From positions 72,623 to 136,622 of the forward strand of contig KQ965791.1 of the NCBI GenBank assembly GCA_001574975.1: DNA of 64,000 nt. Direction: 5' to 3'. The translations under genes were made by a program, and so were the position numbers. Positions 1,784 to 63,554 of this stretch are shown in pieces. The stretch comes from Gonapodya prolifera JEL478. Taxonomy: Eukaryota; Monoblepharomycota; Monoblepharidomycetes; Monoblepharidales; Gonapodyaceae. Position 1 is the first letter of the stretch, and each line of letters starts with the position of its first letter. The notes beneath the pieces are model-generated. The model made no database searches. It saw only the letters and a list, made by a program, of their open reading frames with translations, and was not told the DNA's origin.

Positions 1784-2811
1784 CTGGTCGTTGGACCAAA
1801 ATCGAGCAGCGTTTGGATTGAGCAGGCGATCTAGACGTCGTGAGGATGCGGAAAGAAAACGGTTAGGCGAGTTTGGAACGGGTCCGGTAACAGATTCACT
1901 ACACGTCGCGAACACTTGCCTTCTGCAGGATAGACTGAATCGACTGCGATAACAGAAGATGACTTCAACCGTCCGCTCGGCAGACTCACAAAGACTTTTG
2001 CGGTGGGTTCGGTCGGTTTTAAGGGGGAGAGGGGCGTGACGTCCTTATATTGAGATCCTCTCGCGCGCCAAGACAATCCTGCCTTGGCAAACAGCTCATG
2101 TCCCGCTGCGTGTTCATCGGGAGCTAATTAGCATTGCCCCAAATGCATTTACACTATAGTCATTATTATCGCTCGATTTTCATGTTCACTGTAGTCCCGT
2201 GCGGCGTGCTTGTTACATTTGAGGTCGGCTGACTGTGCTCCGATTCGATTGCAGACCAACCTGTAAGGTCAAGAGAAAACCGAGCGACCCGCTTTGAGCT
2301 AGCGTCATACATACGCAACGAGTGACCTTCCGACTCAAAGCTCAATGAAATGAGGTTTTGTCTCCCACTCAGGATCATGAGTCATATTGATATTGACGGG
2401 GGGCATCACTCTCCACAGACTTTGAGTTGCACACCTAATTAAACACTAGTGATTCGCGAAAAACGCTTTGCGGCTCTCGTCCATTACCTTGTGCACCTGA
2501 CGCCACGTTCTCCAGAGAAAAACTGTCGTCGACGGCAACATAAACTCCCGGCGTCCCTCATGAAACTTGCAGTGATGATTCGGCGTATTTCCCCACAAAC
2601 ACAAGTAGGCCGAAAGTTATTTTTGAAGGTGGGTCCAAGTATAATAACGATCACACAAGATATTTCAGAGAAGCCCCGAGGAGCCCAAAATTATTTGCGT
2701 CGCCACCGCTACCAAAGTTCTTGTGGCGCATGGCAGCTGTTAGAGTTATCAGAACAGGACTGAAGAAGCGGCTGATGTCGACCTTCTTGAAGGCGCGAAG
2801 GATTCCTCACT
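1784..2811. other. intergenic, upstream of the transporter
   Basis: This stretch should hold the promoter of the minus-strand transporter. ORFs on both strands are short, overlap each other and match nothing I recognise. No RNA gene or clear repeat is seen. Confidence 0.5.
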
Positions 2812-2976: not shown

Positions 2977-3285
2977 TTTGAAGTAGATTTTGGTGTTGTG
3001 GAAGCTTGCCGGTAATTTGCTGTGAGGGGAAGTGGGGGGTGAATTTTGTGAAGTTTGCATGACCGAAGCACAGATACATAACCATCCTTTGATTCAATCT
3101 CCTGCTCGCTCCGATTGAAATTCAAACCCGTTTGCTGGTCTACATGGAGGATGTATCGCGATGTGATGAACTTGTGGAGCTGATGAGTCCCGAGAGGATG
3201 GATTTGGGAATGCAGGCAGCTGTGAACTGAAGCATTTTCGGTTCCAGATAAACCCGTACAATACGAGGAAGTAGCAGGTAGCGGA
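2977..3285. other. intergenic spacer between MYND relic and MYND gene
   Basis: Nothing recognisable. Open frames on the minus strand across it have no family features. Confidence 0.4.
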
Positions 3286-4115
3286 ATGACCGCCAGCGAG
3301 CGAATATTGGTGCTCCCTAGTACCAAAACGGCGAGGTCACAAAGCGAAAGGTCATCAGTCGTCTCTTTGCAAGTGCATATGGGAGGTATATGGCGCGACA
3401 TTGCTTTCCGACTGTATCAACCTAAGCTTCGCATCGACGAAAGGGAACATTTTGCCGTCATATGCCAGCAATCCCGTGCACTTTGCCGGATACTATTGCA
3501 ACCTTCCCTGAAATTACTCCCGCAATTCATTGACACCATTGCGCAGACGATCTCGAGATGCCCTCCCTCACAGAAGAAAAAGGACACACACAAAAGTGCA
3601 GAAACTGGCATTAAGTGTCTCAACCACATGCTACACAGTAGGGCGAGGCTCTTATCGCCTGATATCAGTTGTGAAGCTGCGACATACTTTGCAAGTGTCG
3701 CAAGACGACATGCTTGGTTTTATCCTACTCTGAAGGAGCTGCTCCTCTTTGCAGCGAGGAACACACCCTGGACAACAAAACTAGAGAAGCAGTACTTGTG
3801 TACTGCCTTTGCGAAGCTTTCATACGGCAGCAGCACAACTTGCGGATTCCTCTTACGGAATATGTCACAGGCATTCCGCTTGACTGCAGGAAAGAACTCC
3901 GTTTACTATGGAAGATATGGAAAGAACTAGATGTCGAGTCTGTGTGTGCCGCAACTGGGTGCACAAACCTGGCACCCACAAAAGAGTGCGACCGGTGTCA
4001 CATCACGATGTACCGCAATGCAGAGTGTCAGCGGGCACACTGGAAGCTGCACAAACCGGTTTGTCGAGAGGATCTCTGGAGCATTGAAGGCGTTAAGGTT
4101 GAAGAAGGTGAATGA
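3286..4115 (+). pseudogene. MYND zinc-finger gene with a frameshift
   Basis: The N-terminal part reads in one frame from ATG 3286 (helical segment with RLYQPKLRIDEREHF) through YPTLKELLLFAARN. The homologous continuation LDNKTREAVLVYCLCEAF lies in another frame, so a small indel near 3755-3775 separates them; comparison with the copy at 13.6 kb shows these belong to one protein. The C-terminus holds the MYND finger: C-x4-C, then C-D-R-C, then ECQRAHWKLHKPVC. The ligand that normally follows the aromatic residue (Y-C-S) is Arg here (MYRNAEC), so one zinc ligand is missing. MYND fingers mediate protein-protein contacts in many eukaryotic regulators; no other domain is recognised. A sequencing error could explain the frameshift but not the lost cysteine. 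Confidence 0.65.
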
Positions 4116-15892: not shown

Positions 15893-17143
15893 AACACAAA
15901 CCACCACTCGTACTCTCCGGGCCCTCGGGCTGCGGCAAAAGCACCCTGCTCAAGCTTCTCTTTGACAGGTACCCTAACCGGTTCGGATTCTCCGTGTCTC
16001 GTGAGTTGCCAAAGATTGAGATGATCAATGAGAGGCGGGTGTACTATGCGAGGGGAGGGAGGAAGCGTGAAAGGGAGGAAGCGTGAAAGAGTTGAAGGGG
16101 ATCTCGCCACCACTCAGAATGTCGAAGAACACGTCGATCAGAACGGTCAAGGAGGACATTGCCGGTATTCGGATAGCGATGCGGCTGCTGCATAAAAAGG
16201 ACCTGCAGATTCGCGGTCGGACCTGGCATGGAAACTATGTGGACTCTTCCACTCAATCAAATCAATCCAAACCCACCACCTTACCACCTCCTCACCCCCC
16301 GTCTCCCACAGACACGACCCGCTCCCCCCGCCCCGGGGAAACCCCCGACGTCTCCTACCACTACGTCTCCCCCGACCTTTTCCAATCGCTCGTCGACGCC
16401 GAGTGAGTGCATCGATATCGATCTCTTTTCAACGTGAAAATGCTCACTCAAAAAATCGTTCTTGTTCTCAGCGCCTTCATCGAACACGCCACGTTCTCCG
16501 GAAACCGGTACGGCACTTCCAAGGCCGCCGTCCAGCGCGTGTTCGACAAGGGCAGGATATGCGTGCTGGATATTGACTTGCAGGGCGTCAAGAGTGTTAA
16601 GGAGAGGGGACTGGGCGCCAAGTTTGTGTTTGTGAAGCCGCCGAGTATGGAGGTAAGTGGTGCGGGTGGAAAGAAGGTTGATGGTCGGTTTGTTGGTTTG
16701 ATGTGCTCTGATCGAATTGGGCTTGATCGTTATGTCCGTTTTTTTTTTGTTACTCATGTTGTGCCGTCTTTTCCTGTGCTTCTTGTCGCGAACGGATTTT
16801 TCTGTCGTTCCTCTCTCTTTCTTTCCTTACTTTCTTTCTCCCTCTTTTTCTTTCTCTCTATCGCTCTCTTTCTTTCTCTTTTCCTTTCTTTTCTCATTCC
16901 CACACCCCACCCCACCAGATCCTCGAAACCCGCCTCCGCAGCCGCGGGACCGAAACCGAGTCCGCAATCCAAGCCCGCCTGGCCGCATCGCGTGCCGAAC
17001 TCGAATACGCCGCACAACCGGGTGCGCACGACCTTGTGCTCGTCAACGATAACCTGGAACGAGCGTTGGGAGAGCTCGTGGCATTTATTGAGGGGGTGTA
17101 TGGTGCGCTGAAGGGGGGGGAGGCGGTGGTGTTGGATGATTAG
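15893..17143 (+). CDS. GUK1: guanylate kinase (GMP to GDP), first exon unresolved
   Basis: Cytosolic nucleotide kinase that phosphorylates GMP or dGMP with ATP. Exons 15893-16000, 16312-16402, 16472-16652 and 16919-17143 stay in frame. The P-loop GPSGCGKST is followed by [22 protein letters not shown] (GMP-binding), [16 protein letters not shown], the catalytic-core [15 protein letters not shown], and the lid [15 protein letters not shown]. The end matches the family ([19 protein letters not shown]) with a short Gly-rich tail. The frame entering the first listed exon has no ATG and needs two bases from upstream, so a tiny first exon lies before an acceptor at 15892; I could not place it. The last intron (16653-16918) is rich in CT. 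Confidence 0.85.
16802..16900 (+). repeat. TC-rich polypyrimidine low-complexity tract in an intron
   Basis: Nearly uninterrupted pyrimidines with repeated TTTC/CTCT units inside the last intron of guanylate kinase. It lies just upstream of the acceptor at 16918 and is an oversized polypyrimidine tract. Confidence 0.8.
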
Positions 17144-25114: not shown

Positions 25115-28100
25115 ATGAGGACCACACACCGACATAACAATCGAAGAGCGAATCACACGCTGACTCTCCTCTCCCCATCAACCACCGCCTTTGCTCTCGT
25201 CGCTCTCGTCGCCATGGTTCTAGCACCGATCCCGCTCGCCCACGCACAAACTCAGACACCCACGCAGCTCTGCTCGCAATTACAGGCAACGTACGGATGT
25301 GTGTACCCGCAGAGCACGGGGACTGAAGCGTGAGTTGGTCTTGGCGGGGCGAGGGGTGTCTTCGCCGATCACGACTTCGGAGGTGAATAACAAAGGATGC
25401 CCGCACCCCCCCCCCCCCCGCACCGCAGCACATGGGGCAAGCTCACCAACCCAACGATCCAAACGCAATGGACATCCAACGACTGCGACACGCTGACGGA
25501 CAACGACAGCATCATATGCCCAAACTTGGCTTCTGCGTACGGGATCTCTGTCGTCAAAGGGGCTGTAGCGAGTTGGGGGACGATTACGCAGTACACGGCG
25601 GCGTGGAGCTACTGGAATAGCAGTGATTGCGCGTCGGTGAGTGGCTGGCTTCTTGTGTGGTGTGAGTGCGTGGGCTGGGTGGGTGACTCAGCACCCCCTG
25701 CTGCTAGTTGATCCCAGCGACATCCTCGTCCTCGTCCCGTGCCATAACGACAACGACGACCGTGCGTGCCGTCACGACAACGACGACCGTGCGTGCCGTC
25801 ACGACGACGACGACCGTGCGTGCCATCACGACTACGGTGACGACCACCCGGAATGCGGCAACGACGACTACAGCAGCTGCTGCATCTTCACCGACAAACA
25901 CGCGCACATCCACAGCGTCGCCCATCAACCAGAGCGCCGTATCGACGCTCAACACGTTCAAGATCGCGAATCGCGTGCTGCTCATCTCGATCACCGGTGG
26001 AACGTATGAAGGTGCGGTGGTCTTCACTTCCCTGTCTCATCGGCACCTCTCTAACTTCTCTTCTCCCATCTCCCTTCTCCTCCTTATCCCTTTCCTCTTC
26101 ACCCAGCCGCCCCAATCGCCGGTCTCAAAGCATACGCCATCCCCTACACCCTCTCAATCGGCTTACCCTCGTCCCTCGTCGACGCTCAGGGTAGACCGCT
26201 GTACAGCCTCGTCGTGTTCGCGACCTCGGCGGCTGTCACCGCCTTGACGGCTCCTCAAGTCAAGCTCGTAAGTCCTTCTGTCCTTATCATTTTGTTCCGA
26301 CGGACCACCAACCCCCCCATCCGATTAGCTCGAAACCTACGAATCAACATACCGCGTCCGCCGCGTCGTGCTGGGCACCTTCCCCTCTCCCACCGACGGG
26401 ACGGCCGCTGTCGGGGCGGGAACAGGAACCACCGAGGCGGTTTCCCTGGACTCCACCTTCGCAGCACTTGCGGGATTGAAGACCTCGGGGGCCGTGGATA
26501 CGAGTGGGTGAGTTTTTTGGGGGGGGGNNNNNNNNNNNNNNNNNNNNNNNNNNNNNNNNNNNNNNNNNNNNNNNNNNNNNNNNNNNNNNNNNNNNNNNNN
26601 NNNNNNNNNNNNNNNNNNNNNNNNNNNNNNNNNNNNNNNNNNNNNNNNNNNNNNNNNNNNNNNNNNNNNNNNNNNNNNNNNNNNNNNNNNNNNNNNNNNN
26701 NNNNNNNNNNNNNNNNNNNNNNNNNNNNNNNNNNNNNNNNNNNNNNNNNNNNNNNNNNNNNNNNNNNNNNNNNNNNNNNNNNNNNNNNNNNNNNNNNNNG
26801 GGGGAGGAAGTCTCGACGAAGACACTAACACTGACGCCCCCCCATTAAGGTCACCTACCTCCCTCCTCCTGAACCACGTCTGGATCGCATGGGGCACGCG
26901 CGGAGTCTTCCAGGGGAATCGGAGGGTGGTATTGCAGTGTCAGGTGGATGATGTGCTGTGAGTCTTTCCTGTTCCAACACTTCCCGTCTGGGACGACGCG
27001 GCAGTTCCCGGTTCCCGGCGCACAAAGAAGGCAGAAGGCAGAACTCACGCGGTTTTTGGTTTCCCAACCCGCAACCCTCAACCCCGCAACCTTCATCCAC
27101 CCTCCGTCTCGTTCATCTCACCCCCCCTCATTCCCACCACCCCCGACCCAGTCTGGGCACCGAAAATTACTTCGACGCCAACAAGATCTTCCGCATCCGC
27201 GCCGAGGACTTGCAGCAGATCTACGCGTGGCAGGATGATTTGAATACGCGGTTGCCCGCTGGTGCGTACTACTCCCTCTTCGGGGTTTCGGGGCGGAAGA
27301 GGAAGGCTGACATTTGTTTTGGTGGCGCATTGTAGGATCAGCGTTCAAGCTTGAGTTCGCGTTCAACGGTGAGTTTCTCCCATGTCACGGATGCAATTCT
27401 CAATCACTCACCCCCACCACGTCAACGTCTCAGGAAACGGCATTCTCGAAAACGCGAGCTCGCCGCTGCTTATCAACGTCAACACCGGTACGTGTTTTGG
27501 CCTTGCCTTGCCTAATTCCCTTCCCTTCCCCTTCTCGCATCGTGATTCGCCTTCACTTCCCCACGACCCTTCCTCCCCACCCCGCACCCACCACAGAATC
27601 AACCGTCGCCCTTGACTACAAGAAAGTTCCCGGCACGGGCACTAACCGTTGGCCCGCCTCTTTCTCCACCGCATGGACCGGTCTTACTGCCGGTGAGTTT
27701 GCTTCGTTCTCCCCACCCGCGAAGTTAGACTGGTTTAACGCAGTGTTGGTGTGGAAATAAAAGACCCCCTGTTCGCCTTCCTGACGGCATCCCAGGCGAA
27801 CCAGAACCGCGTCAATTGGGTCACGCATACGTTCACGCACGAGAACTTGGACGACGCTACCACGTGAGTTTGTATCGTACGGGGGTTTGGGTCTGTGGCG
27901 CTCGAACTGATAACGTTTGGACTCGCGCGGGGGACAGGTACGACGTCACGTGCGAGATCCAGACGAATGTCAAGATGGCTCAGCAGCTGGGACTTGTCGG
28001 GAAGGCATGGTGGTCGCCAAACTCCATCGTCACGCCCCAGATTTCCGGTACGTTGTCTCCTCCATTCCTTCCTTCCTCCCTTCCTCCCGTCCCTCCTTCT

Positions 28101-29233
28101 GCCGTCTCACCATCACCCCCTCCCACCCCCACACAGGCCTCTTCAACGGCGACACCCTCGCCGCGCTCACCGCACAAGGGCTGACCACGGCCGTCGGGGA
28201 CAACTCGCGCGCCAACCTCGTACCCGCCGACAAGTACCAGTTCTGGCGGTCCAACACCAGCACGTCGAATTACAACGGGTACACCGTGATCCCCCGATCC
28301 CCGACAGAGGTGTACTACACTTCGGATACGGTGGACCAGAACGTGCAGATTTATAATACGATTTATGGGACCCAGGTGAGTTTGGTTTGGGGGTTGGGCG
28401 GAGGGTTGGGGAAGGGCATAGTGGACTGAAGTTGCGACTTTAAAAGCTTGGAACGTCGACCTGGGCTCAAATTTTGGAGCGCGAGAACGCGAGGGTCATT
28501 CCAATGCTGTTGGGTTTCAGACACGACCCGCACATGTGAGTTGTGGCCCTCTACTTCGGGTGGGAAATTCAAACTGACGATGTGTGGGATATAGGTTCCA
28601 CCAGGCCAACTTGAGGAACATCGACCAGGTAAGGCGGCCGCCCCGTTTCCCCAACACGCTTTGACTCACATTGACTTCCCCTTCGCCCAAAGCCCTCCGT
28701 AACTATCGGCTCCAAAACTGGCCGCCTGTCGATTCTGCAGCAGTGGGTCGAGAACGTGCTTGCCAAGTACACTAGCTTGGTGTCGTGGCCGGTGCAGAGG
28801 TGAGTGTAGAGTTGGAAAAGTCAAGATATCGTCGCTGACAATTGAAAATATTCGGGACGATAGCATGCGGATGGACGACTTGGCTGTTTTGTACCGGTGA
28901 GCCTCGAACCTCCGAGCAGGCACTTTTCACGTCATGCACACGACTGACATCGTACTGCACCCGTGACCACCAATCTTCAGCGACCGCCTCGCCCGTGAAA
29001 CCTGCTCCATCAGCACCTCCTTCACCGTCACGTCCAGCGTACTCACCACCATTTCCATCTCAACCGTCAACGCATGCAAGGTCGGCGTCACGCTTCCTCT
29101 CGGGTCCATTCCCAGCGGCACGGGCCCGTGGACTACGGAGAAGATCGGCAACGAACCCATGACGGTGTGGGTCAACATGGCGGCAGGATCGACTGCGAGC
29201 ATTCCGTTGACGGGAGGGGTTGCGTGGGCGTAG
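25115..29233 (+). CDS. agd3: secreted Agd3-like polysaccharide deacetylase (CE18 type), interrupted by an N gap
   Basis: Likely deacetylates an amino-sugar exopolysaccharide at the cell surface, as Agd3 does for galactosaminogalactan in Aspergillus. ATG 25115 gives a basic N-terminus and a hydrophobic core, LVALVAMVLAPIPLAHAQ, a signal peptide. A Cys-containing module (SDCASLIP) and a Ser/Thr linker with 9-residue repeats follow. A beta-rich domain comes next, broken by the N gap 26528-26799. The deacetylase core has CQVDDVLLGTENYF (catalytic Asp pair, exon ending near 26957), VNWVTHTFTHENLDDAT (metal-binding H-T-F-T-H, near 27820), a long exon with AQGLTTAVGDNSRANLVP, and FHQANLRNIDQ (near 28595). 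The end is GGVAWA, stop 29231-29233. At least a dozen short introns. No GPI-anchor signal is seen at the end. The natural substrate in this organism is unknown. Confidence 0.8.
25740..25850 (+). repeat. 27-bp tandem repeat in the deacetylase linker
   Basis: About four copies of a 27-bp unit encode TTTTTVRAV-type nonapeptides. The product is a Thr/Val-rich, probably O-mannosylated spacer between the N-terminal module and the enzyme domain. Unit identity is high, so copy number may vary between strains. Confidence 0.8.
26528..26799. other. assembly gap (272 N)
   Basis: Unknown bases flanked on both sides by G runs. It falls in the middle of the Agd3-like gene, after LKTSGAVDTSG and before TSLLLNHVWIAWGTRG. 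Confidence 0.99.
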
Positions 29234-36770: not shown

Positions 36771-39700
36771 TTATTTTGCATCCCACCTACTCCTCCGCTT
36801 CTCACCATCCCCATTCGCAGACCCTCCACCACATCCACTGCCACCAGTCCATGATGTCGATGAGCCCTCGTTCGAGGACGCTTTCTGGAATCTTGACATA
36901 CCAGGCGGCTTCCCACCAGACGCCCCACCGATGGCACCTGCCCCTCCCGTCCATGACGTCGACGACCCTTCCACCGAGGACGCCTTGGCGAACATCATTC
37001 CTCCACCACCCCCCGCTCCCCCCGTGAGGGCTGCAGGCGGCGCTCCAGCTCCAGCCTTGTGGAAGCTCTGCCCGAACGTCTTGGAAAAGGTCATCCCGCC
37101 CACAGACACGCCGCCTCCCGTGGTCGCAACAGGTGTTCTATTAGACCCAGTCCCACCCCCTCCATGAATCCGCTCCCACGGTCTCTGCGGGTCGGCCACT
37201 CCTGCTCCACCATCACCCCCTCCTATCCCAATGCCCGACCTCCCACCGCCGACGCCACCTCCACGCCCTCCACCGCGGCCCCGTCCTCGGCCTCCGCGAG
37301 CTCGTCCTCGCGAGCCATCGCGGAAGGATCGGAACCTGGGATTCCGCATCGCGAGTGCCATGAGTTGGGGTGATACTTGCTGACCGGCTTGTTCGAGGTT
37401 GCGCACGAGGTCCGAGGCAAAGCGGTCCTCTAGAAGTATTTGCAGTTGAGTATAGGAGCAAGGAATGAGAAGATTTAGAATGTCACATCTGCGCTAACCT
37501 CAACACCAAAGGAGGTACAACTCACCCTTTTCCGTTAAAATCGTCCACGCCGTCCCCTTGACACCCGCCCTACCCGTTCTCCCCACTCGATGCACATGGG
37601 CCTCAATATCCCTCGCCGCGTCATAATTCACCACCGTCTTGACACCCGGCACGTCCAACCCCCTCGCCGCCACATCCGTCGCCACCAACAGCTTGACCGT
37701 TCCCTTCCTAAACACCGAAATAGCGCTATCCCGCTCNCGCTGGTCGTGGTCGCCATGGATCGACACGCACGAGAAGCTCGCCCTTGTCAGCGCANNNNNN
37801 NNNNNNNNNNNNNNNNNNNNNNNNNNNNNNNNNNNNNNNNNNNNNNNNNNNNNNNNNNNNNNNNNNNNNNNNNNNNNNNNNNNNNNNNNNNNNNNNNNNN
37901 NNNNNNNNNNNNNNNNNNNNNNNNNNNNNNNNNNNNNNNNNNNNNNNNNNNNNNNNNNNNNNNNNNNNNNNNNNNNNNNNNNNNNNNNNNNNNNNNNNNN
38001 NNNNNNNNNNNNNNNNNNNNNNNNNNNNNNNNNNNNNNNNNNNNNNNNNNNNNNNNNNNNNNNNNNNNNNNNNNNNNNNNNNNNNNNNNNNNNNNNNNNN
38101 NNNNNNNNNNNNNNNNNNNNNNNNNNNNNNNNNNNNNNNNNNNNNNNNNNNNNNGTCGCTTTCATGCGGAGGAGGTCGATCAGGCGACCTGGGGTGGCCA
38201 CGAGGATGGTGGGTGGGGTGGNCGAGCGGAGTTCTTTGAATTGGGAGTGCTTGTCGGCGCCGCCGGCGATGACGCTTCGTGTTGGCGAGTGGTGAGGAGA
38301 GGAGCAGTGATGGGTTGACATGACGCTCAATACGGCGACGATGTCAACTGTAAACCCACCTGACACCCATCTCCAACGCACTCGCGAACTTCTTCGCCTC
38401 CGTACCAACCTGCCCCGCCAGTTCCCTCGTCGGAACCAACACCAATCCAACCGGCCCCTCACCCTTCTCGACCCATCTCTGATCCGTCGCATGCACACAC
38501 ATCGGGAGGAGGTACGCCGCGGTCTTCCCGGACCCCGTCTTGGCTAGTCCGATGAGATCCCGGCCTTGCAGCGCCACGGGAGTCGCGCAGGCTTGGATGG
38601 GCGTGGGCGTGCTGTACCCGTGGCGCCGTACGGCGGAGAGGAGAGCCGAGGGGAGGTTGAGGTGGGCGAAGGCGGTGGCGGGGCGGGGTGGGGAGGGGCC
38701 CGTGATGGTGGCGTGGAGGGAGGATAGTGTGGCAGATACTTGGGCGGGTGTGAGGCGGGTGAGGTCGGGGTGCTTCAAGGAGGTGGAAGAGACTTGTGGC
38801 CACCATTCAAACTTGGGATTCGATTAGAAAATACTCACCTCCTCGTAGAAATCCTTGCCAATCTCTTCATACTCCATTTTCGAGTGGTCAATCTTCGGTA
38901 ACACAGAGTCCCAGTCGTCCTTCTTGCCCCTCTTCATTGGTGGACCTTTCATGAGCTCGTCGTCCGAATCCACCGCTCCACCCGCCCTTCTGGCCGCTTC
39001 ACGCTCGTCAATCAGTTTTGCTGTGGCGTACACTTCTTCGTCCGAATCCACGTCTTCTCGGCGGGTCGTTACATCACCTCTGAGGCGGATCAAGTTCAGG
39101 ATTAGATATTCGAAGATACAACAAGTGCTATATCAACTCACCCTCCCTTCCCTACTTCCACGCCCCGCTCTCTCATCCACTCAACATAATCCTCCAAATC
39201 ATCTTCCTGGTCCAACCGCTCTGGCTGGTCCGGCTTCGACTTTGCGCGAGTCTCCTCTTGCTGAATGTCCTTCTGCAACCCAGCCATAAACGAGTCCAGT
39301 TCGTCCTCGTCCTCGTCTTCAGGTCCAGTTGTGGCATTCGCGGGGTCGTATTCTTCCTCTGCAGGCTCCTTTGGCGGTGGTTGGACGTGTCCAATCGGTC
39401 GACTCGCGGGGACACTCCCTTTCTGCCCGCTGGCCGGCCCTGCCTTGACGAACGAGCTTGCCATCGACGCATTCTTGCTGAGCAAGTTTCGGACCCGCGA
39501 CGAGGCAAACCCTTCGTCGTCCAGGTCCCCAACCGCGTCGTCGTCGTCCTCGTCCTTGACCCAAGACGGTGTCTCACTTCCCTTCCCCACATCGTCGTCA
39601 TCATCGTTGAGTCGCGGTATTTTCCTCTTGGGCGCCTCCCTGGGCCGCTCGTCGTCGTCGTCGTCGAACCAGCTCTGCTGCCGCGTCTCCTCCCTCTCGC

Positions 39701-43462: not shown

Positions 43463-44182
43463 TCAGTGCACTCCCCGCTGGAGATGACGTCTTCCCAGCC
43501 ACACCGAGTTGGCATGCAGGAGTTTGAAACGTTGCGAACACCTCAGACGCCTGGAAGAGAGGACGGTGTAGGGTAAAAATTGGTGAAAGACGGCGCGAAT
43601 GCGTGCTGCACGGCGGAATGAAGTGCGAGAAGGGATGCGTGGTCTGGAAACGTACATCCTGTCAGATCCAGCATTTGTAGCGTGGTCCTCGAGTCTCTGT
43701 TCGCTGTTGAAATATGGGATTGTCGTGGATTCTCCTGACGCCGGCGGGATCCACGAAATGCCAACGGATTCAAACAGCACCATGGCGAGTCGTTGAACTC
43801 TGATAAAGGTGCAGTTCCGGAACGTGGCCGAGAGGATGTTGGGCCAGAGGACACACTGCACGGTGAATGTGGAAATCTGACTCGAGTCTTTGACCAACAC
43901 CGTCTGAATGCCGGAAACGAAGTGTTTTCGGGCTGCCGCGAAGGGTTCCCCCTGTTGGTGGGTGACAAGCCTGGCAGCCTTGTTGAGGGCTTTGGTGAAG
44001 GCAGCTTCCGTCATGTTTGGGCTGTCACGGAAGACGAGTTGCGTCCACAGTTGCTGCGATGCTGCGATTGCGTCGCGGAGAGTGCTGCCGGTGCAAGCCA
44101 TGCGCAGGATGTCTGGAGTTGGAAGAAGCGAGATGATGCGAAGTTGGAGTTCGACGGGGAAGAAGTCAAAGCGAGTGGACAT
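43463..44182 (-). pseudogene. F-box / LRR gene, frameshifted and short
   Basis: ATG 44182 opens an F-box directly at the N-terminus: FDFFPVELQLRIISLLPTP then DILRMACTGSTLRDAI and SQQLWTQLVF. The following helix and first LRR-like segments read on (VQCVLWPNILSATFRNCTF). Near 43695 the recognisable repeat moves to the neighbouring frame, TTLQMLDLTGCTFPDHASLL, which runs to 43543, while the first frame continues as non-homologous sequence to 43463. A single small indel explains both. The protein would be far shorter than typical fungal F-box/LRR proteins even if joined, so it is probably a decayed copy. Confidence 0.6.
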
Positions 44183-46090
44183 GCTCGATGGGGTGGAGGA
44201 TGCTGGAGTGGCCGCGGACTGGAGCGAAAGGTGTTGCCGAAGTTTGCAACAAGTTGAACAGGTTTATCCGAAAACCGCAATATGGCTTCTTCGTTCTGTG
44301 CGACGAAAGTCTGTTTGCATGTCAATTTACCGTTTTCAGAAGCGTGGTACTGCGAGTACTGCTAATACGAATCAATTTCATTGAAGTTACAAGTGGTTGG
44401 TCATACCACTGCAGCGTAGGGCATTACGTCATACCCTGATGTCTGTTTGGTTCTCTGTGACGCTCAGCGCACGTAGGATTACCCAAAGCAAAAATTAGAA
44501 ATCATCTCAATCCTCGAAGCGACGTTCACCAGTCGTCCCTAGACCAAACGAATTGATTTTCCTTCCGTGTACATACTGCACTTGAGCTTCCGCCGGATTC
44601 GAAAATAAAGTTTCGCTATCCAGACGGTTGTACTTCAACTTTTAGTTTTATGTAGATCCCCTCAGCATGACTGAGCTCATTTATTGGGATTAAATGGATT
44701 AAGCTCCATCTCTGCGCTGGATAAAGATTAAATTTGTTTGCTAGTACGTATGATCTTTGTCCGCTAATTGACAATCGATCTACCATCCACACTGCAATAC
44801 TTCTAACGTCAATGTTGCAACTATTAGACACCAAACAAAAGAAGTTGAAACGCTAGGTCTAAGCTCGAATTCAGCTTATGGGCAAATGCGCAAGCAAAAC
44901 ATTTTGAAATTTGGCAATGCCGGGAGGCATTTTATTCTGTTGAAAGAGCCCATGGGAAGCTGTGACATGTAAACAAGGCAGTATGTTCTATGTATGTCCT
45001 GCAAACGTATACCTCTTCGATCAAAAATATTTTGCCTCGGGAAATGTGGACCACAATACTCGTGATTGAGGAACTAAGTCGACGGTGAGGCTAAAAATCA
45101 CAATTGGTGGCATATTATGCAGAAATCAGAGATTAACATTCAGGATGTCACAGTGATGAACCTTGATCAGGTACCGTAAGCATATGGTTCGCCGCGGATG
45201 ATGCCAAGGGCCACTAAAAGTCACGTGCAAATGGAGTCCGACATAAAAAAAGCAAGAAGGATCGAAGCTTCGATGTATTCTGAGCGAGTGAAAACTACAA
45301 TTTAATGGCAAATATTCAAGGCAATCAAAAGGAAGCGTTCAATGCGGCAAGGGTGGCTGTAATGACGAAGTCAACAGCCGCAACGAGTGGCCCGCTTTGA
45401 GTACACAAAATCTCAAAGCGCCGATGTGCTCTGTGCAAAACCCCTTTTATCCTAATGTCAGACACGCGTCAAAGATTCTTGATCTGCGCCGAAATTCCAA
45501 CCAAAGTGTGCAAGCGATGACGCAATCACAGCAGTGAATGATCATAGAGCTGAGTGACAAAGCGCCCAGCAGTGCGAGAAGTTTAAAAATAAAGAGTGTC
45601 TTCTTTGTTAGTCTGAATGTATTCTCCCACGTAGCATGGAAATCTACGCACAAGAGCGTCCCACTTCAGCTTGCACACCACACGAGCGCAACAACGACGA
45701 CAAGCTCCACTTTCGGCGGAGTACACTGTACAGTTGCATAAATAAAGATAACGGATGGAACACCGTGTGGGCTGCGGTATTACATGGGACTCGGTATCAT
45801 TGTTGGTTCCCAGCGAAGCAATGAGCGATCTTAGCGGTACGCATATCAGCCGCATCGCGTGAAGGCGCCTAAAAATCGATTTGCTCGTTTCGTCTACCTT
45901 GGACAAAACAATTGCAATCTAAACGTTCCATGCCAAATTGGTACACATGTACGCCACTATCACCTTAACTAATAGACATTGTAGTGTTCGCTAACACTCA
46001 CGACAGTCCGGTACTTCTTCCCATTCTCAAACCAATTTCCTTAACATCAGCTTTCCTTCGTCCTGCAAGCCATTATGTGCTCACCCCTTT
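44183..46090. other. gene-poor stretch between F-box relic and VAC8
   Basis: AT-rich. Only the second copy of the dispersed repeat (45505-45880) is recognised. Short ORFs without family features elsewhere. Confidence 0.45.
45505..45880 (+). repeat. dispersed repeat, copy 2
   Basis: Counterpart of 42520-42800, longer by about 100 bp because of extra sequence between the CACACGAGC and CTTAGCGGTAC landmarks (about 45720-45825). Strongly diverged, so an old duplication. Confidence 0.5.
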
Positions 46091-48881
46091 TCACCGCGCC
46101 GAACTCCCTTGCTGGCTCTGGCCGTTCGAACTCCCAGTCGCTGTTGCAGTGCTTCCAGCTGCATCCCGCCATGCCTTGACCCGCTCAACAACCCCTCTCG
46201 CGAGTTCACCAATCTCTTCCACCTCTTCCAAGTCCACCTGATCATCACCTTCACCTCCGTTCCGCGCCCGCTCCTCTTTGACGGCACGCACAGCCTCCTC
46301 CACCCTCTCGACGAGCGTCGCGAACATTTCGGGAAGCTCAGACACACCCACGAGTTTGGCCACGTCCGGATCTCCTCCAACCAGTAGCTGCCCAACCGTC
46401 CACCCTGCCACATGCCACCCAACGGCGTCGTCGCCCTCCACAAATCGGGCAAGGTACTCTCGTACGCCGTCCCAGTTGCGGGCAAACCATAACGCGTGCC
46501 CCGCTGTCGCAGATCCCGTGCCCGAAGCAAGATTGCCCAGCGCTGACGCGGCGTTGAGTTGGAGTTGAGGAGGGAACATGGGAGAGGTGAGGGCCAGGAG
46601 TGTGAGTGGGAGCGGGGTTGAGAAAATGAGGGATTTGGTGGTTTCTGCCGAGGGGAGGTCGATTCATAAACACGTCTGAAATTCTACCCGCAAAAAACAC
46701 ACACTCACCGTTCAGTCCAATCACCGCCACACAAGCCGCTCCCTCGGCAACCACACTAACTCCCGCCGCCCTCCCACCAACGCCCGCCACAACCTGCGCG
46801 ATCTTATCCACCGCACCGGCTTTTGAAATCTCCTCCGCATGCGACCCCGCCAAATTCCGCAACGTCGAGAGCGCGTGACATGCGATCTCCTCCTGCAGTG
46901 CTGTAGCTGCGGCTCCTGCTCCTCCTCCCGGCGCGCCTGGTTCCTGCGGAGGCAGGCCCCACCCGACCAGCTCAACCAAAACAGGAAGGAACCCTCCGCT
47001 GACGATCTCCCCCTCGTTGTCCGCGTGGATCGACAGGTTGCGCACGAGTGCCACACCGGCACTCACAGCAGCCGCGTCGCCGCGTGTGACGGCCCCCCGG
47101 AGCTGTTTGAGAAGGGGTGATAGAGCGCCTCGAGACACGATAAGTGGCTGGAAGGAGGGGTCGGAGGCGAGGTTACGCAGGGCCAGGGTGGATTGAACAG
47201 AGAGCTTGGGAGAGGGGGAGGACAGGAGGGTGACGAGGTGGGGGACAAGACGAGGCTCAGCTGCGAGGCGGGGACGGTTGGCGGCTGGTAGTTGCGAGGG
47301 TAAGATGAGTGGCGGGTACGTCTCTCTTTTACGTTGTCCCACGGATAAAACTCAACTCACCGTCAACCGCCAGATTACTCAACCCCGTAACCACATAATA
47401 TACCACCTCGCTATCCGAGCTCCCCAGCAGCGCCACCATGACGGGCACCGCACCGGCGCGGACAAGTTCGGCCCGGTGCGACTCGGAGTGCGTCATGTTG
47501 AGAAGCGCACCCGCGGCGTTGCGTGATACACGGAGGTCTCGCGACCGAGCAAGACGGACAAGCGGGGCGAGCGCGGCGGAGTGGGAGATGAGGTGGCGGG
47601 TGGATTCTGGTTGGTTAGAGCGCCGGGGGAACAGGGGGCGGCGGCAAGAGGGGCTTGCGTCACATCCATCACCGCGCTAGGTAAGTACGAGGGACTCACC
47701 ATGAGTAGCCAAATTTGTAATGCACCCGACAGCGTTACACTGAACCTCGACGTTGCTGGACTGCATCAGCCGGACAAGGGGGTCTAGGGCACCGACTTCG
47801 ACGATGAGGAGCTTGTTGTGCGCTTGGTGGTCGCATGCGGGTTGCGAGGAAGTGTGAAATATTGGGGAAGTTGGGAGCGGGGAATGAAGGGCGAATGTCA
47901 GGAGTGGTAAATTCTGGTGAAGTCGCTCCGAGGAGGAGACCCAGTGGTACGTCCATCCTCGCCCAGTTCCTCTGACATTAGAAGCTCGCAGTCCTTGGTT
48001 CGCCTCACCAGGAACACCAAGTCCGTGTTTAACCCCGCGATCCGAAACTTTCGCTTGAGTTATACTCACGTTCTACCGCCAAGTTACCAAGCGCCGCCGC
48101 ACTGGCGCGTTGTACTTCCGAATCATTCGATTGAAGAAGGTAGAGGAGAGGTTCGAGGGCGGTACGGGTGAGGAGGGGTACATCTAGAAATCGGGCAAAG
48201 CAATGTGAGACGTTGTCAAAATCCGTGGTATGACGATCGAAAGTCATTCCTCTTGGTCGAATCAAACTCAGCGCCACTTCGCAAATCAAGCCTCGCCCTC
48301 CACTCCCCTCCCGGTTCTTCCCTCTCCAATCACACCACTGTGACTGACCTTTCTCAGTAACTTCCGCAAACGCCAGCGCCGCGGACCGCTTCAAGTCGAC
48401 ATTATCCGAGTACGCCAGAGTAGATACCGCACGGAGTTGGTCTCCTTGGAAAAATGACGGGCCGGCGGGTTGGGCTAGAGTTCAATGGAAGTGCGGGGTA
48501 AGTGATATGAAGTCGAAAATGAGACTGAACTCCCACGAGCAACAAACATGAAAGCGCCCGAAGAATGTTTCATTGTGTCCCGGAGGTTGGAGCTCCAGCA
48601 GGTTGGCCAACCATGGCGATTCCCTTTCACCGCCTCCTGCAAAACGACGTCCCGACAGGCACCAAACGTCCCACCCGCCACTTCCACAGCCCACCACAGC
48701 CGCAATATCGACACTCACATTCCAGGTAGTGGAGCAAATCCGCCACAGCCTCCCGTTCGTTCTCGGCGAGCAGTGGCTCGTACAGTCCCTGTCTCGCCCG
48801 TTTTTGAGAGTCCCAGCACGAAAACGCCGACTCAAAGCAAGCGAACACAGAGTTGAGACAGGATGTCACCGCCGCTGCCAT
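46091..48881 (-). CDS. VAC8: vacuolar armadillo-repeat protein Vac8
   Basis: Armadillo scaffold on the vacuole membrane needed for inheritance, fusion, nucleus-vacuole junctions and selective autophagy in yeast. ATG 48881 gives [18 protein letters not shown], three Cys in a hydrophobic setting suited to palmitoylation, then [16 protein letters not shown], a Vac8 landmark. Armadillo repeats follow: [33 protein letters not shown] with [97 protein letters not shown] and [14 protein letters not shown]. The last repeats carry an extra Pro/Gly loop ([11 protein letters not shown]). The C-terminus is Gln/Ser-rich. Eight or so short introns. Unlike yeast Vac8, residue 2 is Ala, not the myristoylated Gly. 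Confidence 0.92.
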
Positions 48882-54777: not shown

Positions 54778-55596
54778 GGTGTCGTGCGTGTGTGTTTGGT
54801 GCGTGTTTTTCGGGTTTTGCGCGTGATTCCCGGAAGCTTTGCGAGCGGTCGAGCGGCGATGGGCGAGAGAGGGGAAGTTTTAAGGCACTGCGCGCGATTT
54901 GATTACGGATGGAATCGGTTGCGCAATTTGTTCGCGCTTGGGCGGGTAAATGTGCTCGACCCGGCAGATTAGCAAACTTTACCAAACTTCTTTTTTGCAC
55001 TCGTGAGGGCATTGCTTGTGACAGCGGCCTACACGAATACATGCACGAACGTTCGTGATGGGCGCTTTATCGATCGCGCAGGCATCGGACATGACAGGCT
55101 CAGAGCAAGGGACGAAGGCCGCAACTGCAGTCACCACGAAAGGAAACAGAACAGCCGCCTCCAGGATTCACGACTCTCCGATTGGCGGTCTCCACCCACC
55201 AAAACCATCCCACCGGAGCATCATCGACTAAAGCACAGAAATCGATGGTAAATATCTGGAGAAAGACGTCGCAAAGCTCATCCGAGTGGCACAGCCCGGT
55301 GGCGACATCCTGGCAAACCGGATCCACCGAGGACCACTTTTCTCTCCTCTCCGTACACTCCTCCACTCGAGATACAGCCCCGCTCCAGCCGATTGAACAG
55401 AGGGAAAGCAGATGTTGCGAAATCGGTTCGTTGTTCGATGCCTGTATTGTTGTATTGTCCAACAAATTCGGGCTTATCAAGTGTCAACCACGATTTCGCC
55501 AGCCAGCCCGAGGTTCGAAAATCTACCAGGGACGGCCCCGCTAAACCAACAGTCACAGTTGCTCCTGAGAAATATTTTGGCAACAAACCTTCACGT
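54778..55596. other. divergent upstream region, SDR and F-box gene
   Basis: Open frames continue through part of it (55393-55596 in frame with the F-box gene, but without ATG at the far end). No further gene called. Confidence 0.4.
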
Positions 55597-56449
55597 ATGG
55601 GACCAGCTCGCGTCAATGGGAATCGGCCTACAAAATTCCATCTATCCGTCTCGAACGATGCACAGATCCCCGATTTCCACCGAAGTAGTGGTCGACAACT
55701 TCTAAAATGCGTCCAGCAAGGTGGTTGCAGAAAGTCCCGCCCTCCACACACCCGTAAAAAGGCACCCCGCCTGCCCCCAGAAGTTCTCTGCCTCATTTTT
55801 CGGGATTTTGAGGCAGGTCACGTCTTCTCACGGTTGGCAGCAGTGTGCAGATCTTGGCGCGAAACAGCCGAGGTTTTGATGTGGAAGGATCGGAGACCGG
55901 CAATAAGCATTGATGTTGATATACTTGATGGCCGTCTTTTCGAAATCCACCGTACGGATGGAAAGAGTGATCTACCTGGATACAACGTGCTCACTGCTCA
56001 TCACACCGTGTCACATCTAATTCACGGGAGTGATCCAGTCTGCACGGAATCTCGAATTCGTCGCTTGGACGACCTCCGGGTTGAGGTCCTTGTACACCCA
56101 CACGAGAAAACCCGCACGTCGTTTTTCACTCTCGAGGAACAAGACACCCTTCTCGTCTCCCATCTTCCGGCGCACACGCAAAGCAGCCTGTTCAGAATTT
56201 CAAGAGCTGAATGAGCCTTTGAAGGTGGTCCCGGAATACGTACCGTGCAGTCTGTGTGCACACCTATCTCTGTACTACAAGCCTCCAAGCCCTGGCGAGA
56301 CAGAGGTGTTGACGGCAGAAGACATTGAGGAATTAGTATGTCGCACCTTAGAGCAACGGCAAGGAGCCGCCTCAATGTGTGGGATTGATATGCTTACCCT
56401 CCGCTATGCGCCACCTGAACATGTAACCAACCATTGTGTTGTATGTTAG
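55597..56449 (+). CDS. F-box protein
   Basis: ATG 55597 (MGPARVNGNRPTKF) is chosen because the more 5' in-frame codons start from TTG; an ATG at 55438 is also possible. The F-box reads APRLPPEVLCLIFRDFEAG then HVFSRLAAVCRSWRETAEV and MWKDRRPAIS. The frame continues with VSHLIHGSDPVCTESRIRRL to a stop at 56214. The neighbouring frame carries protein-like NEPLKVVPEYVPCSLCAHLS and GETEVLTAEDIEELV to a stop at 56449, so an intron or frameshift near 56190-56215 is needed to join them. The gene is shorter than complete F-box/LRR proteins; the downstream domain is not recognised. Confidence 0.5.
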
Positions 56450-57934: not shown

Positions 57935-59761
57935 ATGTCGTGCGCGATTCCCCCTCTCCTGATCGCGGAAACCGAGCGATTCGTGAAGGGTGAGCTGGCA
58001 TCAGTCGACGGGGTGCGTTTCTGCTGGTTCTCCCTCGCTCGCTTCCTTCATCTCTGCTCGCAATCGCCCATATTACCGCCAGTCGCACGACTTCAGCCAC
58101 ATCGACCGCGTACGGAGAGTCGCACTGGACATCGGAAAGGCCGAGGAAGCTGACTTGGCCATCGTCGAGTTAGCTGCTTTGCTGCACGATGTCAAGGACT
58201 ACAAGTACTCGGGATCAGAAGAAGCCGGACCCGCGGCTGTGAAGGATTTCCTTCAACGCAAGGAGTGTCCCGCGGACGTGGTGTCCGCCGTTGTCCAAAT
58301 CGTAGAAGGAATAGGGTTCAAGAAATCCCTTCCCACCTCGTCCTCCCCAAACGGAACCCAATCAAAACCATCCGCCCCCACCCCGTCCCTCGAACTCGCC
58401 GTAGTCCAAGACGCCGACCGCCTCGACGCCATCGGGGCCATTGGGATCGCCCGATGCTTCACATTCGGCGGAGCTCGACATCGACCCATCTTGGAACACG
58501 GCGACGGCCCACGCAACTCGGGAACGCTCACTGCGGATCAGTACAGTAACAAGTCGCGCCGGTCTACCGTGGCACACTTCTTCGACAAGCTCCTCCTGCT
58601 CAAGGACCGCATGAACACGTGTCAAGGTCGCCGTATCGCCCTGGAGCGGCACTCCTACATGTTGGACTTTCTGAGCACAATCGGGCCAGAACTCGGCGCG
58701 GGTGACCTTTCCTCGCCATACCGTATCCCCATCGTTGACTTATCCCTCCCCGACGCACCCTCCCGCCTCGTCACCGCATGCCGCACCTGGGGCTCCTTTG
58801 TCGCCATCAACGGCGGCGTCCCTACCTCGTACCAGTCCGACCTGCTCTCTCTCGCCCGTGCCTTCTTCTCTCTCGACAACGCAACGAAAAGGACTCTCGA
58901 CGTTGGCCAGAGCGGGGTTGCATGGCGCGGTTACGTGCCTCCCGGAGTGGAGTCCATGGACGGCAAGATGGAGCTCAAAGAGGGCCTGTATGTTGGGCCT
59001 GAACACGGACCTGAGCACCCACGTGTCAAAGCCAGCACACCCTTTTACGGACCAAACCAGTTCCCCGACACTACCCTACCCGGTCTCCGACCCGCGGCTT
59101 TGAACTATATTGAAGCAGTAACAGACTTGGGCGGACGGTTCATGGACCTCCTCTCCATCGGACTCGGTCTCCCCACCCAAACCCTACGCGAAGCATTTAA
59201 ACACGACGACCCAGTTACTCTCCTGGGGTTGTTCTCATACCCGCCTGCGAGGAAGGTCACGAAGACGGGGACTGGGGAGCATACAGATTATGGTCTGTGG
59301 ACTATAATCTCTGCAGACGCGTCGGGGATGGCGTATTGGAATGAGGAGGTCGGAGTGTGGGGAGAGGTTCCGCATATTCCTGGATCGATCGTGAGTCTCT
59401 TCACCTGCTTTACCTCTTGGCTCCTTATGGTCCATATTGTGCTTGCGTCATCTGACCCCCCGCCGCACCCCTCCGTCCTAAGATCTGCAACGTCGGAGAC
59501 CTCCTCGACCGCGCCACGCACGGCCTCCTTCCCTCCCCTCCTCACCGCGTCCTCAACCTATCCCCGCACACCCGCATCGCGATCCCACTCTTCTTTGACC
59601 CCTCCTGGAGCACCGAGGTGACACCACTGCCTCTCCCACCATCCCTGCTTGGGGAAGCCGCTGATCCAAAACGAAGAGCAGCTGCCGAAAAGAGATGGGC
59701 GGGGACGAGTGTTGGGGAGATGAAAGGAAAGTATGCTGCGTTTTTGACGAGGAATGGGTAG
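57935..59761 (+). CDS. fused HD-domain phosphohydrolase and 2-oxoglutarate/Fe(II) oxygenase
   Basis: One polypeptide of 554 residues from exons 57935-58012, 58083-59390 and 59484 less one base (59483)-59761; all junctions are phase 0. Residues 1-230 are a YedJ/YpgQ-type HD phosphohydrolase: SHDFSHIDRV (H28, H32), LLHDVKD (H61-D62), the insertion-flanked VVQDADRLDAIGAIGIARCF (D136 onward), and HFFDKLLLLKDRMNT. Such enzymes hydrolyse nucleotide phosphates. Residues from about 239 are an isopenicillin-N-synthase-like oxygenase: YRIPIVDLS, WRGYVPPGVESMDGKMELKE, LLGLFSYPP, GTGEHTDYGLWTIIS (iron ligands H426 and D428), GDLLDRATHGLLPSPPHRVL (H483) and R493 for 2-oxoglutarate. Both halves lie in the uninterrupted second exon, so the fusion is not a splicing guess. 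Both keep their metal ligands. Substrates are unknown. Confidence 0.85.
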
Positions 59762-61547: not shown

Positions 61548-63554
61548 TCACCCAAACTTAAACTGGAATCTCGTGCCCTCTGGGAACCCCTGGGCGAACG
61601 GGAATCCACCTCCCTGGAAGAAGGGATGGTGGAACCCGCCCGCGCCCTGTTGGGACGCGGGATCGTTGGGGTCGTCACCGGAGTCGTACCGTTGGCGGAG
61701 TTCTGATGGGTTCCGGTGTGGTGTTTCAAATGATGCGTTCGAAATTGTGGAGAACAACAAGAACGTACCGTCGTTGACAAGGACTTCATACGCTGCGTTA
61801 AGCTCCTGCATCTTCTTTTCAATTGCGACACGCGCTTCTCCCTCAGCGTCGTCGTTTTTGTCTGGGTGGTACTTCTGGGCAAGCTTGCGGTACGCCTTTT
61901 TGATCTCCTTCTTGCTCGCGGTGCGCTGATACCCGAAACGCAACATTGTAAGAAGATCATAGTTCACCTCCACAGATGCTCAAAACTCACCGCAACCCCA
62001 AGAATTTTATAATAGTCCCTGCGCTTCGCCATCTTCTCCGCCTGCTGTGCCCTGCGCATTCCGTCCTGCGCCCTACCATCCTGCCCACCACCGACCTCAT
62101 TGGCCTTGGAGAAGTCACGCATGGCGCCCTCGTAGTCCTCCGCCAACATCCTCGCCTCGCCAAGGTCCACTAACGTGTCCACGGTGGGAGGATCCGCAGC
62201 TGCGGCGACTGAGGCGCACGAGGTGACGGCGAGTTCGGCTTCGCGTGCCTTGAGGGATGATGTGCACAAGGCGGCGTTCAGGCGAAGAGACAGTGCGGGC
62301 GATTTGGCGGCCGAGACGTCCGTCTTTGCGGCCACGGCAGCGTCAACAGCCGCCTTGTGGTTTTCCGCAGCGGAAAATTCAGTGATCTTGGCGAAGGTCC
62401 CTGCCAGTTTCTTACAGCGCCGGAACATTGCCTTGCACCACTTGTGCTCCGGGTCCGCCCGCAGACCCTCCTTCACGGCCTTGAGTGCGGCTTCGACCTC
62501 CCCCGACTGCACAAGGGCCTCACCGAGCTGAGCGGCAAGGTCGACGTCGTCGGGAGAGAGCACGGCCGCCCGAGAGAGGTCGGCTGCGGCGCGTTGGGGG
62601 TTGGAGAGGAGTGTGTGGGCTTGCGCACGAAGTCGGCGAGAGGGGAGGTGGTTCGGGTGTTGGGTGAGGAGGTCGTCCAGGAGGGGGAGAGCGCTAGCGG
62701 CGTCGGGGGGTTTCGAGGTGAGGAGGCGTTGGGCGGTGGGGAAGTTGGAGCGCGAGGTGGGAATGGTGGCGAGCTGGATTGTGATGGAAGGATAGTAAAT
62801 GGTCACAGTGACGTGTTTAGGAGCGCGAAGTTTGGTAGCTGTTTTTGAATTCGACGAATGGAACTTACCATCTCGTCGACTTCAGCATCGGGATTACGGA
62901 TCCTGCATTCCTTCAAATCCCGCTCCGCAGAGTCAAAGTCCCCGTCCAGAAACTCCAATCGAGCCTTTTGTTGAAGGGCTTGAAGCATGTCTGGCTTCAG
63001 CTCGAGAACTTTGGAGAAGTCGGCGAGGGCTGGTCGTGGACGGTTCCTGTATTAAGGGAAATTTGAATCGCCAAATCAGCTTCGTTGAAGATGTTACAGA
63101 GCTTACAGTTGTGCATATAGGGCGGCCCTTCGAAAATACGTGAGATACGTCTTCGGCTCTTGGGCTGTTCATTCAGGTTGGGTCGGAGGAGGCAGTCGGA
63201 TTGAACAACAACATTACGCTACATGAGCACAGTCATTCTGACAAGAGCACATATGAACACACCTATCGCTGCTCCATAGTTCTCCAGCGCGGCAGCGTAA
63301 TCTCCAGCCGCCGCCGCCTCCTGCGCCTTCTGAACGAGTTGCTGGACCGACAGAGCGTTGACGGAGCCCGTCGCGGCGAGCACAGAGAGCGCAGAGGATA
63401 AGAAACACAGAAAGAAGGCGAGAATGCTGATTTGCGAGTGGCGGCGATTTGTGATTGGTGCGTGGTGGGTGGCGAACGATGGGGGCTTCCGTCGCAATCG
63501 AGGAGGTATGTCGCCAGCGACGCGGTTGGCGGACATCTCGAGGACGAGAACCAT
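61548..63554 (-). CDS. DNAJC3: ER-luminal TPR/J-domain co-chaperone (DNAJC3/P58-IPK type)
   Basis: Co-chaperone that binds unfolded clients through TPRs and passes them to the ER Hsp70 through its J domain. ATG 63554; a hydrophobic N-terminal segment, [19 protein letters not shown], acts as a signal sequence or anchor. TPR units: [100 protein letters not shown] and [18 protein letters not shown]. The J domain reads DYYKILGVA, then [20 protein letters not shown] with the HPD motif intact, AYEVLVND and [15 protein letters not shown] Gly/Phe-rich tail ends FQFKFG. This architecture, TPRs first and J domain last with a signal sequence, is specific to DNAJC3. No KDEL-like retention signal is present. 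Several introns, at 61.7-61.8, 61.95-62.0, 62.8 and 63.05-63.2 kb among others. Confidence 0.9.

Follow-up and report, generated by a model that had tools for sequence, protein, structure and literature searches.

A probable bifunctional fusion of a YpgQ-type HD hydrolase and a PaIPNS/EFE-like Fe(II)/2-oxoglutarate oxygenase in Gonapodya prolifera

Does a single gene of Gonapodya prolifera JEL478 encode an enzyme in which an HD-domain hydrolase is joined to a 2-oxoglutarate (2OG)/Fe(II) oxygenase, and if so, what might the two halves do together? The gene lies in a 64,000-nucleotide stretch of DNA (contig KQ965791.1, positions 72,623 to 136,622; here called the window). A sequence-only reading of this DNA had proposed that one uninterrupted exon carries the end of a YedJ-type HD domain and the start of an oxygenase resembling isopenicillin N synthase (IPNS), that both halves keep their metal ligands, and that the two act on the same nucleotide-like or phosphorylated metabolite, for example by dephosphorylation followed by oxidation. 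The present analysis indicates that the fusion is real and probably a bifunctional enzyme, with qualifications for both of its halves.

The fusion gene occupies positions 57935–59761 of the forward strand and consists of three exons separated by two GT-AG introns; its spliced product has 554 amino acids (Table 1). Both domains lie in a single reading frame. The coordinates proposed earlier for the joining exon (exon 2) proved exact, and it crosses the junction without a stop codon; reading in its frame meets no stop between 57987 and 59619–59621, past the end of the exon. Only three Pfam models match the product at E-values up to 1, all of them above their curated cut-offs: HD (PF01966, 7.8e-06), DIOX_N (PF14226, 1.5e-20) and 2OG-FeII_Oxy (PF03171, residues 410–502, 7.9e-13). 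Together with the PDB matches given below, they bear out the families previously named, YedJ-type HD and IPNS-like 2OG oxygenase. The window contains one copy of each half, and all other matches within it have E-values of at least 0.08.

Table 1. Features of the fusion gene, in window coordinates; residue numbers refer to the spliced product
Feature	Coordinates	Strand	Remarks
Exon 1	57935..58012	+	Residues 1-26, N-terminus of HD half; start ATG context GACCATGT
Intron 1	58013..58082	+	70 nt, GT-AG
Exon 2	58083..59390	+	436 codons, residues 27-462: most of HD half, the linker, DIOX_N and the beginning of the 2OG oxygenase
Intron 2	59391..59482	+	92 nt, GT-AG
Exon 3	59483..59761	+	Residues 463-554 and stop; H483 (third Fe ligand), R493, A495
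HD domain core	58086..58430	+	PF01966, residues 30-142; H28, H32, H61, D62, D136, D138
Predicted inter-domain linker	58683..58718	+	Residues 227-238, pLDDT < 50 in model
DIOX_N domain	58725..59069	+	PF14226, residues 241-355
G408 codon	59226..59228	+	Site of Arg in best 80 bacterial relatives (EFE Arg171/Anc357 Arg181)
H426-T-D428	59280..59288	+	Two Fe(II) ligands, by alignment

Similarity to HD proteins stops at around residues 230–234 and DIOX_N begins at residue 241. Only about 10 codons separate the two homologies, and there is therefore no room for a normal intergenic stretch between two genes. Third-position G+C is high through the junction (0.76 in codons 211–260 and 0.82 in codons 241–290), and neither AATAAA nor ATTAAA occurs in exon 2. 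A single donor of the GTRNGY form is present in this exon, at 58988 within the oxygenase; looser GTNNGN sites lie close to the junction at 58661 and 58835. No intron of 45–160 nt combining a strong donor, an acceptor and a branch site was found in exon 2; because the branch-site test would also miss intron 1, the evidence against a hidden intron comes from the donors. Met219, the sole Met between residues 204 and 317, has a poor start context. A scan of the junction for bacterial promoters and terminators, which means little in a eukaryote, found nothing.

Several other open reading frames (ORFs) were recognized in the window. Those nearest the fusion gene include an F-box-like ORF at 55252–56211 (+), approximately 1.7 kb upstream (a second is at 43466–44263 (-)), and Armadillo-repeat ORFs and a TPR-repeat ORF that flank the gene on either side (46341–48481 (-) and 61967–62881 (-)). 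An ORF with a partial guanylate kinase domain (PF00625, 2e-18), a nucleotide enzyme, lies at 16407–17108 (+), around 41 kb from the fusion gene. Further away are an ORF at 27914–28426 (+) that matches the Agd3 deacetylase domain (PF25115, 8.2e-19), which we take to be an exopolysaccharide-deacetylase family of fungi and which, like the short introns, agrees with a fungal origin of the DNA; a DEAD-box RNA helicase ORF at 37503–38543 (-), closest to DDX42 in a PDB sequence search (1e-36); and two ORFs at 394–2044 (-), perhaps exons of one transporter gene, with matches to MFS/sugar transporter models that for the second ORF do not reach the curated cut-offs.

A structure model was calculated for exon 2 alone from a trimmed, unpaired alignment of 35 HD and 45 oxygenase rows. 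Both halves are folded in the model (mean pLDDT 84.4, pTM 0.55). Nineteen residues have a pLDDT below 50, and the sole run of three or more such residues, exon residues 201–212, is the predicted linker. The low pTM combined with two well-folded halves fits a predicted arrangement in which a short, flexible tether connects two separate units; because the alignment was unpaired, the model says nothing firm about contact between the halves. When the PDB was searched with this model by Foldseek, Anc357 and PaIPNS ranked first and YedJ/YpgQ-type chains appeared from rank 5, and none of the 50 matches listed (of 278) aligned over both halves.

Alignments identify the N-terminal half as a YedJ/YpgQ-type mononuclear hydrolase domain. 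It has nine PDB matches at E-values up to 1, eight of which are HD hydrolases of the YedJ/YpgQ group, among them 3b57 (6e-35), Bacillus subtilis YpgQ (5dqv, 3e-25) and Escherichia coli YedJ (3gw7, 1e-13); the ninth, a cement protein at 0.21, was dismissed as noise. The NCBIfam yedJ model scores 74.2 bits over residues 14–231. This is far below its equivalog cut-off of 286 bits, and the HD half is thus a relative of yedJ and not an equivalog. The best 30 Bacteroidota HD homologues are 43–49% identical to it. YpgQ (5DQV, 5DQW and 5IHY) and YedJ (3GW7) have the HD domain in common with the window protein, but their chains (211 and 239 residues) have no second domain, and they differ from the window protein in that the latter carries a Ser/Pro-rich insert at around residues 109–127.

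Hydrolases of this type are marked by Mn-dependent (d)NTP pyrophosphohydrolase activity and a homodimeric form. YpgQ, a (d)NTP pyrophosphohydrolase, is the only member of its subfamily with a biochemical characterisation according to a 2020 review (PMC8177086); it has four mononuclear Mn ligands (H29, H58, D59 and D124) and the substrate residues H25, which contacts phosphate, R136, F140 and H158. In our alignment, in which the chain numbering runs six above that of YpgQ, the ligands correspond to H32, H61, D62 and D138 of the window protein and the substrate residues to H28, R150, F154 and H191. All eight of the metal and active-site residues named in the review are kept. The HD ligands listed in the sequence-only reading (H28, H32, H61, D62 and D136) are all present as letters and the claim holds in substance, but the fourth ligand is D138 rather than D136, which is the first Asp of a D-A-D motif two residues before it, and H28 is the phosphate-contact His. 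The same review gives dinuclear HD enzymes, HD oxygenases among them, a six-residue motif, H...HD...H...H...D. No His occurs in residues 63–137 of the HD half, and this diiron motif is consequently absent. If YpgQ is the guide, the reaction would be release of pyrophosphate and not the dephosphorylation suggested before.

The C-terminal half, by the same kind of comparison, belongs to the PaIPNS/EFE-like branch of Fe(II)/2OG oxygenases. Its nearest solved chains are Anc357, a reconstructed ancestor of the ethylene-forming enzyme (EFE) lineage (9ovh, 1.4e-70, 44% identity), and PaIPNS of Pseudomonas aeruginosa (6jyv, 8e-60, 42% identity). Bit scores are 206–241 for the PaIPNS branch, compared with only 71–94 for TraH, SpoC and TropC, which share the oxygenase fold. 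A genome scan with a three-row alignment that included 9ovh and 6jyv gave at least 588 pattern matches, of which at least 526 were confirmed; the best 80 of these, all bacterial and 35–42% identical to the window oxygenase, formed the comparison set. The three Fe ligands of the HxD...H motif (H426, D428 and H483, as listed earlier) and R493, the Arg for the C5 carboxylate of 2OG, are common to the window protein and all 80 relatives.

The earlier statement that both halves keep their metal ligands is thus true, but it is incomplete, since a second-sphere Arg that EFE needs for activity is Gly here. Position 408, which aligns with Arg181 of Anc357 (printed chain numbered two below the numbering of its paper) and Arg171 of EFE, is Arg in 80/80 of the best relatives and Gly in the window protein. 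At position 495, likewise, Ser in 80/80 is replaced by Ala, and the RxS motif becomes RxA; the two scan patterns span other positions, so neither the Arg nor the Ser was forced by the scan. In EFE, R171 contacts the C1 carboxylate of 2OG as well as L-Arg, and the R171A mutant is inactive (PMC11025135). The RxA motif is not disqualifying, because EFE itself has Ala279 at the Ser position (R277/A279; PMC12329707) and TraH carries RYA there in our alignment. Activity of the oxygenase half is not assured, because G408 replaces an Arg whose loss inactivates EFE: either substrate or 2OG binding would have to differ, or activity would be impaired. L-Arg is an unlikely substrate, because the protein lacks the Arg by which it is positioned. 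At the 116 columns conserved in at least 90% of the best 80 relatives, the window protein agrees in 76 and differs in 40, six of the latter being gap columns close to its C-terminus. PaIPNS and Anc357 have Fe ligands as in the window protein, but their chains (339 and 332 residues) are without an HD domain and have Arg and RxS in place of Gly and RxA. The PK2 EFE is similar to the window oxygenase in its fold and RxA motif, whereas it has Arg171 against Gly408 and around 20% identity in the fold match. Isopenicillin N synthase proper cyclises ACV and uses no 2OG. PaIPNS, the nearest natural relative with a solved structure, does not bind ACV, and no function is known for it (PMC12329707).

A fungal protein that unites a 2OG oxygenase with an enzyme of the HD superfamily has already been published. 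PhoF of Fonsecaea multimorphosa is a fusion of PhnY, a 2OG oxygenase, with PhnZ, an HD-domain enzyme, and both of its activities belong to one pathway, according to PMC10574752. The likeness to the window protein, a single fungal chain that contains both a 2OG/Fe oxygenase and a domain of the HD superfamily, is limited by differences in both halves. PhnZ is a mixed-valent diiron oxygenase, whereas the HD half here is of the mononuclear YpgQ type; and the window oxygenase is a PF14226/PF03171 protein, unlike the PhnY half of PhoF. The PhyH (PF05721) and NCBIfam phosphonate-HD models, which we take to stand for PhnY and PhnZ, had no match in the window protein at E-values up to 1. The window fusion is therefore, by its domain matches, related to PhoF and distinct in both halves. 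An HD plus DIOX_N/2OG-FeII_Oxy fusion was described in no title or opening abstract that we found in the open-licence literature; the earlier impression that this combination was unfamiliar stood to that extent, but it left PhoF unmentioned. The cordycepin enzyme Cns2 (an HDc phosphohydrolase) was weighed as a further comparison by description alone.

In bacteria, there is no clear link between the two halves. No HD homologue (E-value up to 0.1) was found at the 80 best oxygenase loci, 1.38 Mb in total, and no oxygenase relative (E-value up to 1) at 41 HD loci (L001–L009 and L090–L121), most of which have flanks of only around 1.5–3 kb. Two of nine genomes tested from the 80 with the oxygenase have an HD homologue. 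Of 198 Bacteroidota genomes, 74 carry the HD gene and 26 a 2OG match at 1e-10, just one of the latter being close; 14 carry both (Fisher p 0.08). One of these 14 genomes, G012, has the pair close together, with match starts 2.4 kb apart; approximately 0.02 within 3 kb would be expected by chance, so this adjacency speaks for a link. In a 60-genome sample of its genus, 55 genomes have both genes, which share a contig in 38 of them (2.4–37 kb apart) and lie on separate contigs in the other 17; apart from the 2.4-kb pair, the distance on one contig is 11.7–37 kb in 37 genomes. The oxygenase of this genus is only 26–30% identical to that of the window, and we regard the G012 adjacency as genus-level synteny of a distant oxygenase and as weak support for a real link. 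The neighbours of the oxygenase at 36 of the 80 loci (132 ORFs, by simple ORF calling with ORFs >900 amino acids skipped) give no functional hint: no recurrent partner emerges, the most frequent Pfam family occurring in at most three of the 132 ORFs and the most frequent NCBIfam family in at most two. Taken together, the bacterial data decide neither for nor against a common pathway for both halves. The metabolite proposed in the sequence-only reading is reasonable for the HD half, given the eight YpgQ residues, but the same metabolite for both halves is unproven, and the bacterial neighbourhoods give it no clear support.

In the close Bacteroidota pair (locus L122, 5197–8482), the YedJ-type HD gene and the distant 2OG oxygenase gene are on the same strand, and the ORF between them resembles, by eye, an RNA methyltransferase. 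Viral contigs contained nine HD relatives, and four oxygenase pattern matches of which none was an oxygenase relative. One of the two loci on viral contig IMGVR_UViG_2718218029_000001, L009, has an in-frame stop in its HD-homologue stretch (3001–3600).

Starting from what is directly observed, namely the gene structure, the domain membership, the letters at ligand and active-site positions and the low-confidence linker of the model, we infer activity of both halves, a nucleotide substrate and a common pathway. The explanation to which we give about an even chance is one bifunctional chain, in which a YpgQ-type hydrolase and a PaIPNS/EFE-branch oxygenase are tethered and serve a shared pathway. 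The N-terminal half would be a mononuclear HD hydrolase, its metal probably Mn2+, that most likely cleaves a purine-nucleotide-like triphosphate to the monophosphate and pyrophosphate; the nucleotide substrate is suggested by analogy, because it is taken from YpgQ. The C-terminal half would be an Fe(II)/2OG oxygenase acting on another small molecule or on one further downstream. The two would be tethered by a short flexible linker and would work in one pathway, with hydrolysis either before or after oxidation; a shared pathway is the simplest reason for fusing tethered halves. Against this reading count G408, the lack of clear linkage in bacteria and the single sequence in which the fusion was seen. 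A more specific version, which we put forward tentatively and think rather unlikely, is a two-step enzyme in which a nucleotide-like triphosphate is hydrolysed and its product is then oxidised, and in which adaptation to a new substrate has cost the oxygenase its EFE-type Arg.

The strongest counter-reading is that the two activities are independent and merely co-expressed on one chain, a nucleotide house-cleaning HD enzyme with an unrelated oxygenase and no shared substrate. We consider this doubtful, though it deserves serious attention: the poorly ordered linker of the model may fit it, as do the empty 80 oxygenase loci and the Bacteroidota co-occurrence of 14 in 198 genomes. Fusions in a single frame usually reflect a shared pathway, which counts against independent halves, and the close pair in one Bacteroidota genome exceeds the chance expectation, although its oxygenase is distant. 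PhoF, whose fused activities share one pathway (PMC10574752), points the same way. Ranked next, and clearly less probable, is the idea that substrate oxidation has been lost and that the oxygenase half has become a sensor of 2OG, iron or O2 regulating the HD hydrolase. Gly at position 408 where all 80 best relatives have Arg, the inactivity of EFE R171A (PMC11025135) and the 40 of 116 conserved columns that differ argue for such a sensor, whereas retention of all three Fe ligands and of the 2OG-C5 Arg argues against it, and RxA at 493–495 is also found in EFE (Ala279; PMC12329707) and, by alignment, in TraH.

It is very improbable that two adjacent genes were wrongly joined in the assembly or gene model. 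The fusion of an HD domain with this kind of 2OG oxygenase was seen in one sequence only, which would fit such an artefact, but so exact a mis-join by chance is unlikely given some 10 codons between the homologies, an open frame and continuous coding composition, and the poor start context of Met219 counts against it as well. Least probable of all, to the point that we give it almost no weight, is an organophosphonate-degrading PhnY plus PhnZ fusion of the PhoF kind. The overall idea is alike, a fungal 2OG oxygenase with an HD-domain protein (PMC10574752), but the HD half, with no His between D62 and D138, has no diiron motif, neither phosphonate-related model matches, and none of the nine chains that the HD half matches in the PDB at E-values up to 1 is named PhnZ.

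The preferred reading of one bifunctional chain bears on both protein families. In neither family has the biological role been settled, to judge from the sources on PaIPNS (PMC12329707) and the YpgQ subfamily (PMC8177086). With the halves naturally fused, fewer substrates need to be considered for each, because the product of one half becomes a candidate substrate of the other. If the two-step version were true, the enzyme would have a role in the synthesis of nucleoside-derived metabolites or in the clearance of damaged nucleotides in fungi. Beside PhoF, the window protein would be a second case in fungi of a 2OG oxygenase joined to an HD-domain metalloenzyme, here a hydrolase.
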